Source of the DNA: Gammaproteobacteria bacterium
Lineage (GTDB): Bacteria; Pseudomonadota; Gammaproteobacteria; Steroidobacterales; Woeseiaceae
Assembly: GCA_009937445.1 (NCBI GenBank)
Contig: JAACFM010000001.1
Span: 55,455-119,454, forward strand
Reading direction: 5' to 3'
DNA length: 64,000 nucleotides
The notes under the pieces are model-generated. The model was not told the DNA's origin. It made no database searches and worked only from the letters and a program-made list of their open reading frames with translations. Positions 14,459-46,228 of this stretch are shown here, in pieces (positions within the stretch are counted from its first letter, which is position 1; the number at the start of each line of letters is the position of its first letter). The position numbers and the translations under genes are program-made.

Positions 14459-15274
14459 ATGGTCACAAACAGCCTAAAAAATAATCGCGTCATCGTAACA
14501 GTCGATACCGAAAATCATGTCGCCGACGTGATGTTGAATCGCGCCGACAAAATGAATGCGGTCGATCTCGAGATGTTCGAAGCGCTTGGGGCTGCAGCGG
14601 ATACTGTTGCTGCGGACAAATCGGTTCGTGCGGTTGTCCTCCGCGGTGGCGGCGGCAATTTCTGCGCCGGCATTGATCTCAGCGTCATTGGCAATTCCGG
14701 CCTCGATTTCGGCAAAGCACTGATGCGCCCTGTCGAGCCATCGGTGGCGAATATTTTCCAGCGCGCGGCCTACGCATGGCGGGAGTTGCCAATTCCCGTT
14801 ATCTGTGCGATCGAGGGCGTAGCCTTCGGGGCGGGTATGCAGATCGCGCTGGGTGCTGATATTCGCTACGCATCACCGGATGCAAAGCTGTCGATCATGG
14901 AATCGAAGTGGGGAATCATTCCGGATATGGGGTTCACGGCGACATTGCGGCATCTTGTTCCCCCGGATCGCGCCAAAGAGCTGGCGTGGTCGGCCCGAAT
15001 TCTGGATAGCGCCCAGGCACAGGCACTGGGTCTGATTACAGCCGTGATGGCCGATCCGGTCAATGCGGCTCGGCAGTTTGCTGCCGACTGCGCGACACGT
15101 TCGCCGGATGCCGTTCGTGGCATCAAGACCCTGGTCAATGTCGCATGGCACCAGACAGAGGCGGAGGCCCTGGCGCTGGAAGCAAGGCTTCAAAGTGGCA
15201 TAATCGGGGGCAAGAATCAGATTGAGGCCGTAATGGCAAACCTCGAAAAGAGAAAACCGGATTTCACCGATTAA
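14459..15274 (+). CDS. Enoyl-CoA hydratase/isomerase (crotonase family)
   Basis: GGGGNFCAGIDLSVI, AIEGVAFGAGMQIALGADIRYASPDAKLSIMESKWGIIPDMG. Confidence 0.9.
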   Translation: MVTNSLKNNRVIVTVDTENHVADVMLNRADKMNAVDLEMFEALGAAADTVAADKSVRAVVLRGGGGNFCAGIDLSVIGNSGLDFGKALMRPVEPSVANIFQRAAYAWRELPIPVICAIEGVAFGAGMQIALGADIRYASPDAKLSIMESKWGIIPDMGFTATLRHLVPPDRAKELAWSARILDSAQAQALGLITAVMADPVNAARQFAADCATRSPDAVRGIKTLVNVAWHQTEAEALALEARLQSGIIGGKNQIEAVMANLEKRKPDFTD

Positions 15275-15296
15275 GAGCTGGAACTTTGCGTCTGTC

Positions 15297-16058
15297 GTGT
15301 ACTCCAACAGATCAGGATCAGCGCAGGAAGTAGCAGTTATTAACTCGACGACACCCCATAAACTCGTGTGGATCGTGGTTATCGCGATGCTCTCGCTGGC
15401 GTCGAATTTAGCCTGGTCTCAGCGCTCCTCGGAGTTGTCAGCCGATCTTCCCAATAGCCTGACGATGATGACCCAGGACAAGGTCGAAGCGCTGTTCGAC
15501 GCAGGTGATTTTGAACGTGCGTTTTTTATCTACCGAAACGAGCTTGCGCCTATCGGCGACAAGTATGCGCAGTACATGGTGGGCTACATGTATTTGACCG
15601 GCATGGGTACCAGAGAAGACCCGATTGCGGCGTCTGCCTGGTACCGTCTGTCGGCGGAACGTGGAACACCAGAGTTCATTGCAGCTCGCGATCAATTACT
15701 GCGAAACATGAACGATGATGAGAGACGTCGTTCAGATGCTGAATACGTTCAGTTGCGCGCTGAGTATTGTGACCTGGCAGTACTGTTATCTTCCGTCAAA
15801 CGTAACTTTAGAGAGTTGGAAGCCAAAACGGGTTCACGGATTCAGTACGATAGCACTGCCGTGACCGTTATCGAAACCGGTGATGGACGCGTTCGTTCCG
15901 GGGTTGATTATTATGGTTCTCTCAACGCGCAGCTTGAAGACAGACTAAAGCTAATGAAGGAAATTGGCGGTTTCGAGGATATGGATACTGACCCGGGGCA
16001 GGTCAACCTGCGCGAATTGGAACGCAGGGTGAAGGAATACATCGCATCAGTCGATTGA
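15297..16058 (+). CDS. Secreted Sel1-repeat protein
   Basis: Signal-like N-terminus; AQYMVGYMYLTGMGTREDPIAASAWYRLSAERGTPEF (Sel1/TPR-like motif). Confidence 0.7.
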   Translation: MYSNRSGSAQEVAVINSTTPHKLVWIVVIAMLSLASNLAWSQRSSELSADLPNSLTMMTQDKVEALFDAGDFERAFFIYRNELAPIGDKYAQYMVGYMYLTGMGTREDPIAASAWYRLSAERGTPEFIAARDQLLRNMNDDERRRSDAEYVQLRAEYCDLAVLLSSVKRNFRELEAKTGSRIQYDSTAVTVIETGDGRVRSGVDYYGSLNAQLEDRLKLMKEIGGFEDMDTDPGQVNLRELERRVKEYIASVD

Positions 16059-39449: not shown

Positions 39450-40403
39450 CTATGACTCTGGCGACTTGGCTGGGAGCAGCCGTTTGATGCCGCTTTCGCC
39501 TCCTACCAGCAAGCCGCCAATGAGGACCCCAAAGAGGCCGTTAAATATCATTGCTGCGAGAACGGTGGCGAATCCGCTGCCCACCGGGAGTTCGTGGGCC
39601 AGTGCTTCAAAATGGTGCAGGGAGTTGGCGACCAAAGGAATACTGTGCACCAGAATGCCGCCACCGACCAGGAACATGGCTGCAGTCCCGACCACGGACA
39701 GCGTTTTCATGAACTTCGGCGCGAAGCGCAGTATCCATTCTCCAAACCATTGTTGAAAACGAACCCACTTCGACTCGCCCTGTTTGTCGATAAGGTGTAT
39801 GCCGAGATCATCGAGTTTGACGATGCCGGCAACAAGGCCGTACACGCCAATGGTGATAGCAGCGGCTACAACGGATAGCACAGCGATACGCGTTACGAGG
39901 TCAGCGGCCTGGACCGTGCCGAGCACGATGACAATGATCTCGGCCGACAAAATGGCGTCAGTACGAATCGCACCGCGAATGCGCTTTTTCTCGAAAGCGA
40001 CCATGTCGACTTTTTCGTCAGCCACCGCATTCAGTCGTTGTTTGTGCTCCTCCTCGTCCTCGGCAGAGTGTAGAAATCGATGGGCTACTTTCTCGAAGCC
40101 CTCGTAACAAAGGTATGCGCCGCCCAGCATGAGAAGCGGAGTAATGATCCATGGCAAAAAGGCGCTCAAAGCTAAAGCGATCGGCACCATAATGAGCTTG
40201 TTGAGAGCGGAGCCCTTGAACACCGCCCAGACGACAGGCAATTCTCGTTCCGCCCGAACGCCGGTTACCTGCTGTGCATTAAGCGCGAGATCATCGCCCA
40301 GGACTCCGGCGGTTTTCTTCGCGGCAACCTTGGTCAACATCGCCACATCGTCCAATAGTGTGGCGATATCGTCGATTAGGGCTAGTAGACTGGTTCCGGC
40401 CAA
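39450..40403 (-). CDS. DUF808 family inner-membrane protein
   Basis: MAGTSLLALIDDIATLLDDVAMLTKVAAKKTAGVLGDDLALNAQQVTGVRAERELPVVWAVFKGS...GGAYLCYEGFEKVAHRFLH. Confidence 0.92.
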   Translation of the reverse strand: MAGTSLLALIDDIATLLDDVAMLTKVAAKKTAGVLGDDLALNAQQVTGVRAERELPVVWAVFKGSALNKLIMVPIALALSAFLPWIITPLLMLGGAYLCYEGFEKVAHRFLHSAEDEEEHKQRLNAVADEKVDMVAFEKKRIRGAIRTDAILSAEIIVIVLGTVQAADLVTRIAVLSVVAAAITIGVYGLVAGIVKLDDLGIHLIDKQGESKWVRFQQWFGEWILRFAPKFMKTLSVVGTAAMFLVGGGILVHSIPLVANSLHHFEALAHELPVGSGFATVLAAMIFNGLFGVLIGGLLVGGESGIKRLLPAKSPES

Positions 40404-40482: not shown

Positions 40483-41289
40483 CTAGTTGAGCCGAAATCC
40501 AGAGGATGCCAATTGCCGTGCACTGCGGTCGAATTCCTGGCGATCCGCGTAGGTCAGTACAACCTCAAACTCGCCTGTGCCGCGACGAAACCAGTCCAGG
40601 CTGATGTCGGGTGTCTGTTTTTCGAGTCTTTCGATGAACGCTTCCGCACGGTACGGTTCGCCAAAGGTCAGAAGCGTCGATTGTCCTAATGCGGAATACA
40701 GCGTATCGGGAGGTGGTTTGCTGCTTACGCCGTTACCGAGGACGTAACCCAAATGCCTGTAAATGTATCCCGAGTACCAGACTGCACCATTGGGAATGGT
40801 ATCGGCGTTCCTGGAAATTCGACCGGGACCGTAGTTGTAAGCAGCGAGCGCCAGATGCAAATTACCGTCGTAGGTCTTTAACAGTTCCTGCAAATAGCGG
40901 GCCCCGGCATCGATGTTAGTGCAGGGGTCATAAAGATCACTCAAACGATGGATACCCAGATGTTTCGCCGTACCTGGCCAGAGAATTTGCATGACGCCGT
41001 GGGCGTTAGCGCGCGATCGGGCCGTTTCCACAAAGTCGCTTTCTCCGCGCGCAACCGCGAGCAGCAGTGACTCCGGAAGATCGTGTTCCAGGGCGGCAGC
41101 CCGAAAGCAGGTAGCGTGGGGAAACGTATAGGCCGGCGCAGTTGCTGTTTGATTTGCTGTGTAGTTGCGCCAGGACGCGTCAAGCTCGTCGTGGCGGGTA
41201 AGCGCGTCTGCTGATAGCGCGAGAAGGGTGGTGATGACGCCAGCAACCAGGATGCTCAACTTGCGCAGTTGACCGGGAACCTTAGCCAT
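40483..41289 (-). CDS. Lytic transglycosylase, SLT domain, exported
   Basis: LPESLLLAVARGESDFVETARSRANAHGVMQILWPGTAKHLGI...DPCTNIDAGARYLQELLKTYDGNLHLALAAYNYGPGRIS. Start refined to 41289. Confidence 0.92.
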   Translation of the reverse strand: MAKVPGQLRKLSILVAGVITTLLALSADALTRHDELDASWRNYTANQTATAPAYTFPHATCFRAAALEHDLPESLLLAVARGESDFVETARSRANAHGVMQILWPGTAKHLGIHRLSDLYDPCTNIDAGARYLQELLKTYDGNLHLALAAYNYGPGRISRNADTIPNGAVWYSGYIYRHLGYVLGNGVSSKPPPDTLYSALGQSTLLTFGEPYRAEAFIERLEKQTPDISLDWFRRGTGEFEVVLTYADRQEFDRSARQLASSGFRLN

Positions 41290-41785
41290 CGGGCATCTCC
41301 AACCCTGTCGCTGCCGATATTGCTGCCAGGCTGGTTTGGATGTCAGTTTCAGCCTCGTAAGCAAAAGCGACTTCGTAAACCCCTGGTTTCAGTCGAACAA
41401 CGCGATAGTCCATGCCGGTGGTTTTTTGCAACTGAGAAACAAATCCGTTCGCCGCAAGCTCGCTGCGAAAAGGACTCCAGAAGGCGTACCAGTGTTCTGT
41501 TGATGGTTGTGCGACCGATTCTGCAGCGAGCAGGTCGTCAATGACCGGTTCGGGAGGTACTTCTTCTTTGACGAGCTCAATAGCTGTTTCGAGCGGCTCG
41601 TCGAGCGCAGCTTCGATCAACAGATCTTCTGCAGGTGCGGGCTCTGGTTCTGAATGGTCCAGAGCCGCAACGGCCGGCTCAGCGTGCACTGTCGTTTGCG
41701 GTAACAACTCGGGTACGCCCAACGCGAGAATCAAAAACGAAATCGCAAGGGCCGAGCCACACAATATGCCAACAATTCGGACCAT
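41282..41785 (-). CDS. Membrane-anchored protein with SPOR-like C-terminal domain
   Basis: N-terminal TM, acidic/Pro-rich linker, C-terminal WYAFWSPFRSELAANGFVSQLQKTTGMDYRVVRLKPGVYEVAFAYEAETDIQTSLAAISAATG resembles a SPOR fold. Confidence 0.55.
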   Translation of the reverse strand: MVRIVGILCGSALAISFLILALGVPELLPQTTVHAEPAVAALDHSEPEPAPAEDLLIEAALDEPLETAIELVKEEVPPEPVIDDLLAAESVAQPSTEHWYAFWSPFRSELAANGFVSQLQKTTGMDYRVVRLKPGVYEVAFAYEAETDIQTSLAAISAATGLEMPDG

Positions 41786-41794
41786 AAGAGTCTC

Positions 41795-43285
41795 CTAGGT
41801 GATATCCCTGACTTGAATGGCTCGCCAGTCAATGTGCTCAGCCGACCGTGCGGTGATCGATGCGAGTTCAGTCAGCCACTCATCTAATGCGGCGTCCTTG
41901 AGTCCAGGACGCATAGACGTTGAGCAGCGCAATGGCAGGTCATCAATGTGATTTGCCAGGCGTCTGGCGATTTTGGCATCGTTAGCTACGAGGGCAAAAA
42001 AAGTGTCCGTATCAATATCGATCGCCCACTCATAGGTCTCTGTCCAGTTGTTTCTGTCGGTTGTGGTCTTCGCGATGGGGAAGTTCAACGTGTCTCCTGT
42101 GCGGGCAATCCTCGCGACGGTGCGCTTGCGGCAGTCCTGGCCTGATAATCGAACCAGGCCATGGTTTGCCTGGTGCTCAAGGAAAAATACAATCGCGTCC
42201 GTGTTCGCCCGCGTCTGCAAAAGGGAGCACGGTGAAAGGCACTCAGAAACCGATCTCGGTGCGACAATCTTTAGTGGTCCGATGAGACCGTCCTTGCCCG
42301 CATTGGGTATCGTTATCGGGTGAGGTCGTTTATAGCCGATTTGCTGCGGTAGCGGATTTTCATGACGCGTTGATCGATCAACGATCACCGGGGGCGGTTC
42401 CACATTCGGAAGAACGACATATGCGCTAACGCTCAGCGCGGCAAGATTGTCATTATCGGATTCGGGCGTTAGGGTCAGCCAATACTGGTACAGGACGTTA
42501 TCGATTTGATGCGCCTTACCGCTGAGAACAGCGTTGGTCTTGTCGGCGTCGCTGGTGAGTTTGAGCGCCTGACGGTTGGCGAGATTGTTGCCAATCAGCT
42601 CAACGGTGCCGTCGAGTCCGTCGCCCGCTGGCACAGCGTTGCTTGTCGAAACAACGTATTCCTCTTCCATCTGTTGTTGCAGCGTGCAAGACAACTGGTG
42701 TGCCAGATGCGATGCAAGCAGGTCGGTTTGTTCGAGAGTAAACGGCACATCACGCGCGCCGAGAAAGGTTGCGTCGATACTTTGTTGTCGCATTGCCTGT
42801 CGTTGAATAGTGCTGAGTCGGCCGGACCACTGTTTGCCGAATCCTGTTACCCAGGTCCGGTCTTCCAGATCGAGGGCCCGGACGTTAACTGAATAGCGAC
42901 TGTCGAGATTCTGACTCAACTCCAGTCCGACGTAATAATGAACACTGTCGTGCAGACAATCGTCCGGTCGCGATTCGAGCGACGTGCCGCTGCGTCCCTG
43001 TTGCCAGCCTATCGAGACGCCAGATGAATCGATCGCCGCCTCAAGCAAGCGGTCCCGCAATGACAGCGCCAGCTCATTACTGATCGAAGCAGGGGCATTG
43101 TCTTGCAGCACCACAAACATGACGGTTTCATTCTTGAATCGCGGGTGGACGAGGAGTTGCTGTTTGACGTACGGGACCAGCTCGCGATCAAGCCATTGGT
43201 CCAGGTCCTTCTCTCGCGACTGCGCTGTTGTTGGTATCGATTGTGCGAGAACGAGCGTCAGAATGATCAATAGCTGCCGAGTCAT
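41795..43285 (-). CDS. Secreted protein of unknown function (496 aa)
   Basis: Signal peptide MTRQLLIILTLVLAQSIPTTAQ; no recognised domain. Confidence 0.7.
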   Translation of the reverse strand: MTRQLLIILTLVLAQSIPTTAQSREKDLDQWLDRELVPYVKQQLLVHPRFKNETVMFVVLQDNAPASISNELALSLRDRLLEAAIDSSGVSIGWQQGRSGTSLESRPDDCLHDSVHYYVGLELSQNLDSRYSVNVRALDLEDRTWVTGFGKQWSGRLSTIQRQAMRQQSIDATFLGARDVPFTLEQTDLLASHLAHQLSCTLQQQMEEEYVVSTSNAVPAGDGLDGTVELIGNNLANRQALKLTSDADKTNAVLSGKAHQIDNVLYQYWLTLTPESDNDNLAALSVSAYVVLPNVEPPPVIVDRSTRHENPLPQQIGYKRPHPITIPNAGKDGLIGPLKIVAPRSVSECLSPCSLLQTRANTDAIVFFLEHQANHGLVRLSGQDCRKRTVARIARTGDTLNFPIAKTTTDRNNWTETYEWAIDIDTDTFFALVANDAKIARRLANHIDDLPLRCSTSMRPGLKDAALDEWLTELASITARSAEHIDWRAIQVRDIT

Positions 43286-44037
43286 GATGCCTCCAGTCTT
43301 ATAGTGCCGTTTGCTCCAATTACCAATGATCCGCCACGGTGTTCCTGCATCAGCCCGTCAAGCTGGCCTTTCAACTTGCCCGGCAAGGTAACGCCCCAGC
43401 TAATGCTGTCGGCATCGATACCCGTTCTGACAAGTGCATCAACGACAGGCGCTGGCACGGTGGATGCTTCCATTTCGTGAAAACTGTTGGGCAAGGAGGC
43501 ATCCCAGAAACTGATTCGCGATTCACTGACCGTCATGCGTCTGGCGCGCTCACCATCGATCGCGTAAACGCCAACCTGACTGGCGGCGACCAGGCGTGTG
43601 AGTGCCGCGTCGGATTCGAATCGCAAGGTAAACCCTTCCTGTTCTGCGGTCACAGGAGCAGGCGCGGGTGTGGGTGGCGCTTCCTTGACCGGACTTGTCA
43701 GTGCCGCAACGGGTTCTCCGTCAGACGCATACCTGGGAACCCACTTCGGTCGTGTCAGCGTTACAAGTTTCGGTTTTTCAACAATCTGTTGCTGCGGTAT
43801 TAGCTTTGGTTCGGGCATTGGTTCCGGTACCGGCACAGTGACCTCTGCAACGACGGTTTCGGCCACTGGCGCAACCGGCGGTGAGATCGGCATACTCTGA
43901 ACGAGTGCGAAAATCGCAACCAGGCACAGCGACAATATGGCCATGAATCGCATGACATCTGTCTGTAGATCAGCCGCGCCACCAACGTCCATGTCAGCGC
44001 CGCGGTTGAGGGGGTAGGCGAGCGGAGACCGGCTCAT
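43282..44037 (-). CDS. Single-TM protein with TolR/ExbD-like topology
   Basis: LQTDVMRFMAILSLCLVAIFALVQ (Asp at start of TM), Pro-rich linker, C-terminal soluble domain; adjacent to a TolQ-like gene. Confidence 0.6.
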   Translation of the reverse strand: MSRSPLAYPLNRGADMDVGGAADLQTDVMRFMAILSLCLVAIFALVQSMPISPPVAPVAETVVAEVTVPVPEPMPEPKLIPQQQIVEKPKLVTLTRPKWVPRYASDGEPVAALTSPVKEAPPTPAPAPVTAEQEGFTLRFESDAALTRLVAASQVGVYAIDGERARRMTVSESRISFWDASLPNSFHEMEASTVPAPVVDALVRTGIDADSISWGVTLPGKLKGQLDGLMQEHRGGSLVIGANGTIRLEAS

Positions 44038-44651
44038 GTGCCCGCCAGGTGTTCTTCGATGCGGTGCAGGCTGGCGCGCATCTGCGAGGTATCAGCCCGC
44101 GCCGCTTTGTCGTACTGCTGCTGCAATTCGGTGCCCAACGTGATGGTTTTGTAAACGCGCATTACGTAGCCGCCAACACCGCCGAATATTGTTGTGGACA
44201 GTGCCAGCAAAATACCGCCATCTATCATGCGTTCCAGCATGGCAAATGCGCCTTGTTCCATCGCCGCAGCGCGGTCACCCAGAGCGAAAATCAAAGCACT
44301 TCGCATCCCGATGGCCGTCCAAATCACGCCGACACCCATGAACAATGTGGTCCAGATATCGGTCAGGTGATCGAAATGCACGATCTGTGTAATTGGTCGG
44401 TCCTCTCGCAGTGCTTCTCGCAGTCGCCCAAGCGTTATGAAGTAAGCCAGAAGTAGCGCGGCGAATACGGGGATCGATGAACCGAGGTTGGTGTAGGCCC
44501 AGTGCAACCAGTCTCCGGGGCTGCTGATGGGCGTGTCACCAAACTGTATCCATCCGAAACGACTCAACGTGTACAGAGCCGCCGATGCGCCCAGCAGTGT
44601 GCCCAGTGCGCCGGCAGCAAGCCCGCGAAAAAATACCTGACCTCGGCCCAT
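44034..44651 (-). CDS. MotA/TolQ/ExbB-like membrane protein
   Basis: Three hydrophobic segments; GVGVIWTAIGMRSALIFAL...ERMIDGGILLALSTTIFGGVGGYVMRVYKTITLG parallels ExbB/TolQ TM2-TM3. Start refined to 44651. Confidence 0.6.
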   Translation of the reverse strand: MGRGQVFFRGLAAGALGTLLGASAALYTLSRFGWIQFGDTPISSPGDWLHWAYTNLGSSIPVFAALLLAYFITLGRLREALREDRPITQIVHFDHLTDIWTTLFMGVGVIWTAIGMRSALIFALGDRAAAMEQGAFAMLERMIDGGILLALSTTIFGGVGGYVMRVYKTITLGTELQQQYDKAARADTSQMRASLHRIEEHLAGT

Positions 44652-44670
44652 TGTCCGTCTCCGTGTGCGC

Positions 44671-45222
44671 CTAGCGGCCGGCGGCGCAGGCGTTGCAGGT
44701 CGCTTCGAGAACCAGTTCAACTTCCTGGTAGAGTTGATCGGCGCGGTAGTAGCCATCGGCATCGCGGCTGACTTTCAACAGGCCGCGTTCCTTGTCGGAA
44801 AGCTCGCGCTCCATATCGAACAGGACTTTTTGCTTGTTCGGACAGGTGTGCGAGCAATTGTTGTAATCGCCGCGCATCGACATGAACTTCACGTTGAAGA
44901 ATCGGTTGTAGTAGTCCTCGGCTTGCCGGGTGCTAAGCAGCCCTTGGTCCGATGACCAGACGAGAAACTCACTGAATTCGCGTTTGTTTTCAGGCTTTGG
45001 ATCGCCTTCAGCAATGTCGAGCAGTTCGTCATAATAGCGATCAAAGTGGGCGTGACAGCCGTTAATCAGAGATGTTTGCACACCGTCGATAGCCGTATTC
45101 AGGTTCCGTGACTGTGGACTTCCACACACAGGGGCGGTCGATGCGCAGGCGACCAGAAAGAGCGTCATTGATGAAAGTGCGGCCAGCGTGAGCAACGGCC
45201 TTCTAATGGCTTTGAGATTCAT
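44671..45222 (-). CDS. Cys-containing lipoprotein of unknown function
   Basis: Lipobox LFLVACAST; conserved-looking CSHTC and CNAC motifs. Confidence 0.7.
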   Translation of the reverse strand: MNLKAIRRPLLTLAALSSMTLFLVACASTAPVCGSPQSRNLNTAIDGVQTSLINGCHAHFDRYYDELLDIAEGDPKPENKREFSEFLVWSSDQGLLSTRQAEDYYNRFFNVKFMSMRGDYNNCSHTCPNKQKVLFDMERELSDKERGLLKVSRDADGYYRADQLYQEVELVLEATCNACAAGR

Positions 45223-45234
45223 GTTCGTTACTCC

Positions 45235-46056
45235 TTATTGTTCGAGTGGACTGCGATAGGCTTGTTCGACGCTGCCAGGCGGCGGCCCAGCGACCAGCGT
45301 CTGGGCATCTTCGTCACCGAACAGGATGCTCTTGACGCCACCAACGACCTCAATCATTTCGGGAGTGATGATTCCAAATGACTGGTTCAGCTGTTCCATC
45401 AAGGTAGCGCGCGCGATCTCCTGGCGTGTTCGCTGAATCAACAAGCTGGTTTCATCCATATCGAGGTAAATGTCCGACGCCAGCACCGCAAGTGACTGGT
45501 CACCTTTGGCGCCGGACGTAGCGACCAGTTGGTAATACTGTTTGAAGCGTTCACTCAGTCGCATTCCGGATCGGCCACGCAACGTCGGTGTGTTTTGTGG
45601 GAGCGCTTCAGAGGCCTTTCCGCCGACCAGTGTTTCCTGCAATTTCCACGGCGTCATTTTCTTGCCGAGCTCGTTACGCAGGCCTTTTTCCAGACTTAGC
45701 TTGGTATTGTTGACGGTGTGTTCCATGTCTGGAAGGCGCTCTTCCATAATGGTCAGCATCTCGAGATACGTAGCGCCAATCTGGCGGGCCAATCGCTGAC
45801 AACCCGAGTCGTTCTCAGCCCCGTCGCATTTGCTTTCGTTGTATAGTTCCTGCTGTTGGTCCAGCCTTCCTATGACTTCCTGGAGGCCGGTTTCCATGTC
45901 GCGGGCCACGTTACCGGTCTGACGAAGGTCCTCCACGACAGTCGTTGGGAACAAGCGAATAGTTGGGGTAGTTGCGAAGCTGCTCGTGGCGCTCAGCAGG
46001 GACAGGGTTGCGATACCCAATGACAGGGTTTTTCGAACGACGCTTATTTTCATCAT
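45235..46056 (-). CDS. Secreted helical protein of unknown function
   Basis: Signal peptide ending SATSSFA; long helical segments; first gene of the minus-strand operon. Confidence 0.7.
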   Translation of the reverse strand: MMKISVVRKTLSLGIATLSLLSATSSFATTPTIRLFPTTVVEDLRQTGNVARDMETGLQEVIGRLDQQQELYNESKCDGAENDSGCQRLARQIGATYLEMLTIMEERLPDMEHTVNNTKLSLEKGLRNELGKKMTPWKLQETLVGGKASEALPQNTPTLRGRSGMRLSERFKQYYQLVATSGAKGDQSLAVLASDIYLDMDETSLLIQRTRQEIARATLMEQLNQSFGIITPEMIEVVGGVKSILFGDEDAQTLVAGPPPGSVEQAYRSPLEQ

Positions 46057-46177
46057 GCATTCCTCGTTGCTAGCATGGCCAAAGACACGGTTTTTTTTGT
46101 GTTGGCTTAACCTAACCCTCGGTCAATGAATGCAACCTGAACGCGGAATCCGTACATTTCCCTATTGCGTATAGTAA

Positions 46178-46192
46178 TGCGAATGATTATCA
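46178..46192. promoter_or_regulatory. Fur box TGCGAATGATTATCA upstream of feoAB
   Basis: Matches TGATAATnATTATCA at 12 of 14 defined positions; 37 bp upstream of feoA. Confidence 0.75.
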
Positions 46193-46228
46193 TTTGAACA
46201 CTGCAGGGACCTCACCCGGAAAAACTTA

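Follow-up and report, generated by a model that had tools for sequence, protein, structure and literature searches.

A conserved seven-gene envelope operon of Gammaproteobacteria that combines a candidate ExbB/TolQ-like protein with a lytic transglycosylase

Does a compact gene cluster in a Woeseiaceae genome encode an ion-driven machine that acts on the cell wall? The cluster lies at positions 40483-46056 of a 64,000-nucleotide stretch of contig JAACFM010000001.1 (assembly GCA_009937445.1; this whole stretch is hereafter the window) and consists of seven minus-strand open reading frames (ORFs), g1 to g7 in reading order. Our analysis points, on balance, to an envelope machine in which a diverged ion-driven pair, g3 and g4, would be coupled to peptidoglycan remodelling. 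The tight packing that the original prediction had described for these genes was recovered ORF by ORF. Gaps of 12, 19 and 9 bp separate g1 from g2, g2 from g3 and g5 from g6, respectively, g3/g4 (44034-44037) and g4/g5 (43282-43285) overlap by 4 bp each, and g6 and g7 overlap by ~8 bp assuming that g7 starts at 41289, where an ATG was verified.

The seven genes are, with near certainty, inherited as one unit. Their order and orientation were constant in the fetched Woeseiaceae loci whose contigs were of sufficient length, and twenty regions fetched from the results of class- and order-wide searches carried g1-g7 in the same order wherever the contig was long enough. A profile search with g3 across 369 genomes of the class gave 6 positives, some of them outside its own family, and an independent search with g1 returned the identical 6 of 369; an order-wide g1 search added five more families, and those sharing the g1-g7 order include f3, f136, f189, f191 and f195. 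The flanking genes varied between families around the constant seven. Because this order is kept both in Woeseiaceae and in other families, the operon is far beyond chance, which settled the neighbourhood check proposed with the original prediction in favour of all seven genes being co-conserved. At the family level, g3 was found in 44 of 107 genomes and g4 in those 44 plus two others, so that 44 of the 46 share both (Fisher P 4e-28, a value that overstates the number of independent cases owing to relatedness of the genomes). Among 398 genomes sampled across the phylum, g1 was detected in the source genome only, with a single marginal exception, a partial match at E 9.6e-4, and no plasmid match to g1 was obtained. 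The g1 and g3 trees largely track family boundaries, a pattern suggestive of predominantly vertical inheritance and numerous losses. One genome, G448, contains two complete divergent copies of the operon (L098 and L099), which stand apart in both trees.

The candidate motor subunit g3 (44034-44651, 205 amino acids) shows four transmembrane (TM) segments by hydropathy, a short cytoplasmic loop and a helical C-terminal tail; its AlphaFold2 model (predicted local distance difference test score, pLDDT, 70) consists of two TM helices followed by two long helices. The start at 44651 is backed by relatives, most of which lack the extra N-terminus of a longer ORF that reaches 44762 and would overlap g2. 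Alignment by hhalign of a profile built from 44 g3 sequences with an ExbB/TolQ profile built from related genomes gave a score of 32.3, which none of 200 column shuffles, a lenient null for membrane proteins, reached (mean about 15, standard deviation 2.7, maximum 25.0; reversed alignment 13.9). In the same test, the positive control of TolQ versus MotA scored 30.2, a strength similar to that of g3 versus ExbB/TolQ. The alignment pairs GVIWTAIGM of g3 with GLFGTVWGI and ILLALSTTIFG with IAEALIATAMG, and, with the pore helices in the expected register, places g3 Thr112 and Thr154 on TolQ T145 and T178. Both threonines are invariant in 25 divergent g3 sequences from several families, and the corresponding residues of TolQ (T145/T178) and ExbB (T148/T181) make up the polar ring in the proton path (PMC12583513, PMC12905483). 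About 18 of the 50 listed Foldseek matches of the g3 model were ExbB, TolQ, Mot/Pom or Zor chains. Taken together, the profile comparison and the threonine pair indicate that g3 is quite probably a remote member of the ExbB/TolQ/MotA superfamily.

The adjoining g4 (43282-44037) encodes a single-TM protein with Asp27 at the start of the TM segment (LQTDVMRFMAIL...), which reads LQTDVMRFMAILSLCLVAIFALVQS. Asp27 is present in 40 of 40 alignment rows bearing the TM motif, the remaining rows being C-domain fragments or late start calls. The TM segment is followed by a linker, Pro-rich in most members and coiled-coil-like in some families, and by a conserved periplasmic C-terminal domain. This domain had no significant Pfam match, no PDB match and no OmpA-like domain of the MotB type, and its comparison with SPOR or ExbD profiles returned nothing reliable. 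The g4 layout, which is that of TolR/ExbD/MotB, is weakly suggestive of such a partner.

A connection to the wall is suggested by the last two genes. By its sequence, g7 (40483-41289) is an exported SLT lytic transglycosylase, as had been predicted: it matches PF01464 with E 1.4e-27 and Slt70 in the PDB with E 7.8e-15, and the SLT motifs Glu82 (ARGESDF), GVMQI and AYNYG are invariant in the alignment. Gene g6 (41282-41785) encodes an N-terminal TM anchor, a variable Pro/Glu-rich linker and a C-terminal domain homologous to the C-terminus of g7 (hhalign probability 96, E 4.3e-9). We describe both domains as SPOR-like, in keeping with the anchored SPOR-like protein originally proposed for g6, on the basis of this mutual homology and of sub-threshold hints in Pfam. 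Among the seven proteins, g7 alone had a significant family match: searches of Pfam, NCBIfam and PADLOC with all seven gave SLT-type matches only, and PDB sequence-profile comparison of g1, g3, g4 and g5 gave none.

Between the candidate motor and the enzyme lies g5 (41795-43285), a secreted protein of 496 amino acids. In its AlphaFold2 model (pLDDT 78), the N-terminal domain matched LpoB (4q6l; E 4.7e-4, probability 1.00) by Foldseek, with further matches to GNA1162 (0.96) and to TolB and CsgG (up to 0.84); a further beta-rich C-terminal region and conserved Cys complete the protein, and no internal repeats were found among its domains. A regulator role for g5 is plausible in view of E. coli, where the Tol motor acts via CpoB to tune the peptidoglycan synthase PBP1B-LpoB (PMC4458516). 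There was no indication of a TolB beta-propeller, and g5 is not TolB. The original statement that the operon lacks TolA, TolB and Pal held for Pfam and NCBIfam matches but was incomplete, given the domain of LpoB/TolB-N/CsgG fold in g5. The secreted helical g1 product (45235-46056, 273 amino acids), outside the Pfam, NCBIfam and PADLOC families, is the most conserved of the seven (53-86% identity across families) and has two invariant Cys. The g2 product (44671-45222) is a lipoprotein, as predicted originally, of no recognized family; its lipobox is LVAC (Cys26), and the lipobox Cys and six further periplasmic Cys, seven in total, are invariant in 44 sequences. The invariant Cys of g1 and g2 are compatible with an oxidizing periplasm.

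Several results, besides the leniency of the shuffling null, weigh against a motor coupled to SPOR-like wall targeting. For g3, PF01618 gave no match up to E 1, no PDB match of the Foldseek search fell below E 0.001 (best motor match 0.45), and the periplasmic Glu E173 of TolQ, in the IAEAL motif, is not conserved. The assignment of g3 to the MotA/TolQ/ExbB type made in the original prediction therefore stands on the profile score (32.3 versus a shuffle maximum of 25.0) but found neither a Pfam match nor a significant Foldseek E-value. For g4, the TM block compared with the ExbD/TolR profile gave P 0.33, with 148 of 200 shuffles equally good, and in the comparison of its C-domain with ExbD 3 of 100 shuffles were as good. 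Because the TM block did no better than shuffles, the profile does not support membership of g4 in TolR/ExbD; of the likeness claimed originally, the topology and the invariant Asp were retained. SPOR (PF05036) was the best plausible Pfam hint for the g6 and g7 C-termini but remained below threshold, in 4 of 22 g6 members (best E 0.031) and 3 of 21 g7 members (best E 0.0036), and hhalign scores of these domains against SPOR profiles were only slightly above shuffles.

We favour, with modest confidence, g3-g4 as the motor, and give about even chances to peptidoglycan remodelling as its output. How the motor would work, in what stoichiometry and with what phenotype, we infer as follows. An oligomer of g3, probably a pentamer, would form an ion channel of the ExbB/TolQ/MotA type around a dimer of g4 TM helices, and ions flowing past Asp27 of g4 and the two threonines of g3 would move g4, whose flexible linker and C-domain would extend into the periplasm. 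Moving g4 could then act on the periplasmic g5, through its LpoB/TolB-N-like domain, on the lipoprotein g2 and on g1, and this action may control or position the peptidoglycan-cutting g7. The related SPOR-like domains would hold g7 and the inner-membrane-anchored g6 on the glycan. The net effect would be energy-dependent local remodelling of peptidoglycan, analogous to Tol-Pal yet apart from it.

Two other accounts of the pair were weighed against this envelope machine. The genes could encode an envelope-spanning apparatus for assembly, secretion or motility in which the pair drives export or movement, g1 and g2 are surface or outer-membrane parts, and g7 merely opens a gap in the peptidoglycan, like the dedicated lytic transglycosylases of flagella, pili and secretion systems. 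SLT enzymes often accompany trans-envelope machines, the g5 domain is also CsgG-like, and the conservation of g1, the highest of the seven, might suit an assembly component. Flagellin was moreover commoner in carriers (22/44) than in non-carriers (13/63) among the 107 family-level genomes, with P 0.002 uncorrected for relatedness and genome size. However, no ATPase, secretin, usher, pilin or outer-membrane channel was recognized among the seven by Pfam or NCBIfam, two SPOR-like domains favour peptidoglycan targeting over a pore, and half of the carriers, including the source genome, have no flagellin match. We regard such an apparatus as unlikely; for the same lack of flagellin in half of the carriers, including the source genome, a flagellar stator was rejected. 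Rather improbable, in our assessment, is a static scaffold, in which g3 and g4 would form a membrane anchor that recruits a wall enzyme and an LpoB-like regulator with no ion-driven motor. Such an anchor would accord with the fact that neither Pfam nor Foldseek directly supported g3 and with the failure of g4 in the ExbD/TolR profile test, but it would have no need of the intramembrane g4 Asp and the g3 Thr pair, which are invariant across families, and the g3 profile score is well above shuffles.

The neighbourhood of the operon in Woeseiaceae raises a further alternative, an iron-linked TonB/ExbB-like uptake system belonging with feoAB. Divergent feoAB adjoins the operon in every fetched Woeseiaceae locus whose contig reaches there, and the divergent g1-feoA region of the window (46057-46228) contains a Fur-box-like sequence, GCGAATGATTATCATTTG. 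Both the feoAB neighbour and the Fur-like site were seen only in Woeseiaceae; similar sites in relatives lie mostly near feoA, and feoAB was not found beside the operon in other families, so it was rejected as a part of the system. Neither a TonB-dependent receptor nor a TonB C-domain was found, and a lytic transglycosylase with SPOR-like domains is ill-suited to uptake. An iron-uptake role is thus very improbable.

An envelope machine of the favoured kind would resemble several known systems in part. With Tol-Pal (TolQRAB-Pal and CpoB), the operon shares a motor-like inner-membrane pair, a TolB-N-like fold, a lipoprotein and a link to peptidoglycan, but it has no Pfam or NCBIfam match to TolA, the TolB beta-propeller or a Pal/OmpA domain, and it has a lytic transglycosylase of its own as well as a pair of SPOR-like domains. 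Since the source genome encodes a canonical TolQ with adjoining TolR elsewhere (L001), the operon is separate from Tol-Pal. All seven PF01618 loci of this genome lie elsewhere, and g3 is not among them. Another locus of the genome, L007 (contig C147:20814-21164), encodes a divergent MotA/TolQ/ExbB-type protein of 266 amino acids, and the gene after it apparently encodes a 454-amino-acid protein that is not ExbD. The two-gene inner-membrane arrangement, the TM Asp with the Thr pair and the Pro-rich linker of the single-TM partner recall ExbB/ExbD-TonB, from which the operon differs in that g3 has four TM segments, a short cytoplasmic loop and no PF01618 match, and g4 no matching ExbD/TonB domain. 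A four-TM A-like subunit with a single-TM B-like protein directly downstream is also the arrangement of MotA/MotB and of non-flagellar generic ion transporters (PMC12505986); in contrast to MotB, g4 has no OmpA-like peptidoglycan-binding domain, and the pair is far more diverged and not flagellar. Zorya ZorAB is likewise a diverged MotA/MotB-like pair, and its chain 8vvi_C was among the marginal Foldseek matches of g3 (probability 0.82), but 0/7 proteins matched PADLOC and no nuclease or helicase partner is present, in agreement with the dissimilarity to the Zorya layout noted originally. The g5 N-terminal fold is shared with the LpoB/GNA1162/CsgG/TolB-N group, although g5 is larger, multi-domain and secreted and has no detectable sequence similarity to its members.

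No named system for the operon was found in the family libraries or the literature searched, as the original prediction had anticipated, nor was such an operon described in the literature on the source taxon, in searches that left subscription journals mostly outside. We tentatively suggest, at slightly less than even confidence, an undescribed class of ion-driven machine, in which a deeply diverged TolQ/ExbB-like motor would directly drive its own SPOR-like-targeted lytic transglycosylase and LpoB-like regulator, so that wall cutting would be energized by the inner-membrane ion gradient. The ion-driven motors of 5:2 type known so far make up a short list (Mot, Ton, Tol, Gld, Agl and Zor); if the suggestion is true, this would be one more, overlooked by standard family models, and the first we know of whose genes share a single strictly conserved unit with those for SPOR-like domains, an LpoB-like domain and a lytic transglycosylase dedicated to it. 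So compact an operon would make the coupling of membrane energy to the cutting and synthesis of peptidoglycan directly testable. In addition, g1, g2, g3, g4 and g5 represent protein families with no significant Pfam or NCBIfam match.

The assembly of the source genome is fragmented, and scans for promoters and terminators gave signals not clearly above shuffles. A DUF808 gene lies directly downstream of the operon on the same strand (39450-40403, minus) and was rejected as an eighth operon gene, as the loci fetched from relatives did not have it next to the operon. A different eighth gene, encoding a small secreted protein, lies just downstream of g7 in several non-Woeseiaceae families and was found neither in the window nor in other Woeseiaceae loci. 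It occurs at L104:3425-3910, L106:4379-4774, L109:4045-4446, L111:4458-4856 and L112:4161-4637, as well as at L098:2176-2688 (minus) and about 14596-15360 (plus) of L116. Its protein follows the pattern YDYAxVxxVxP...GYxVxYxYxGxxYxR...DPGxxIRVRV, which we take to resemble the flanks of glycine-zipper 2TM proteins, apparently without the zipper itself.

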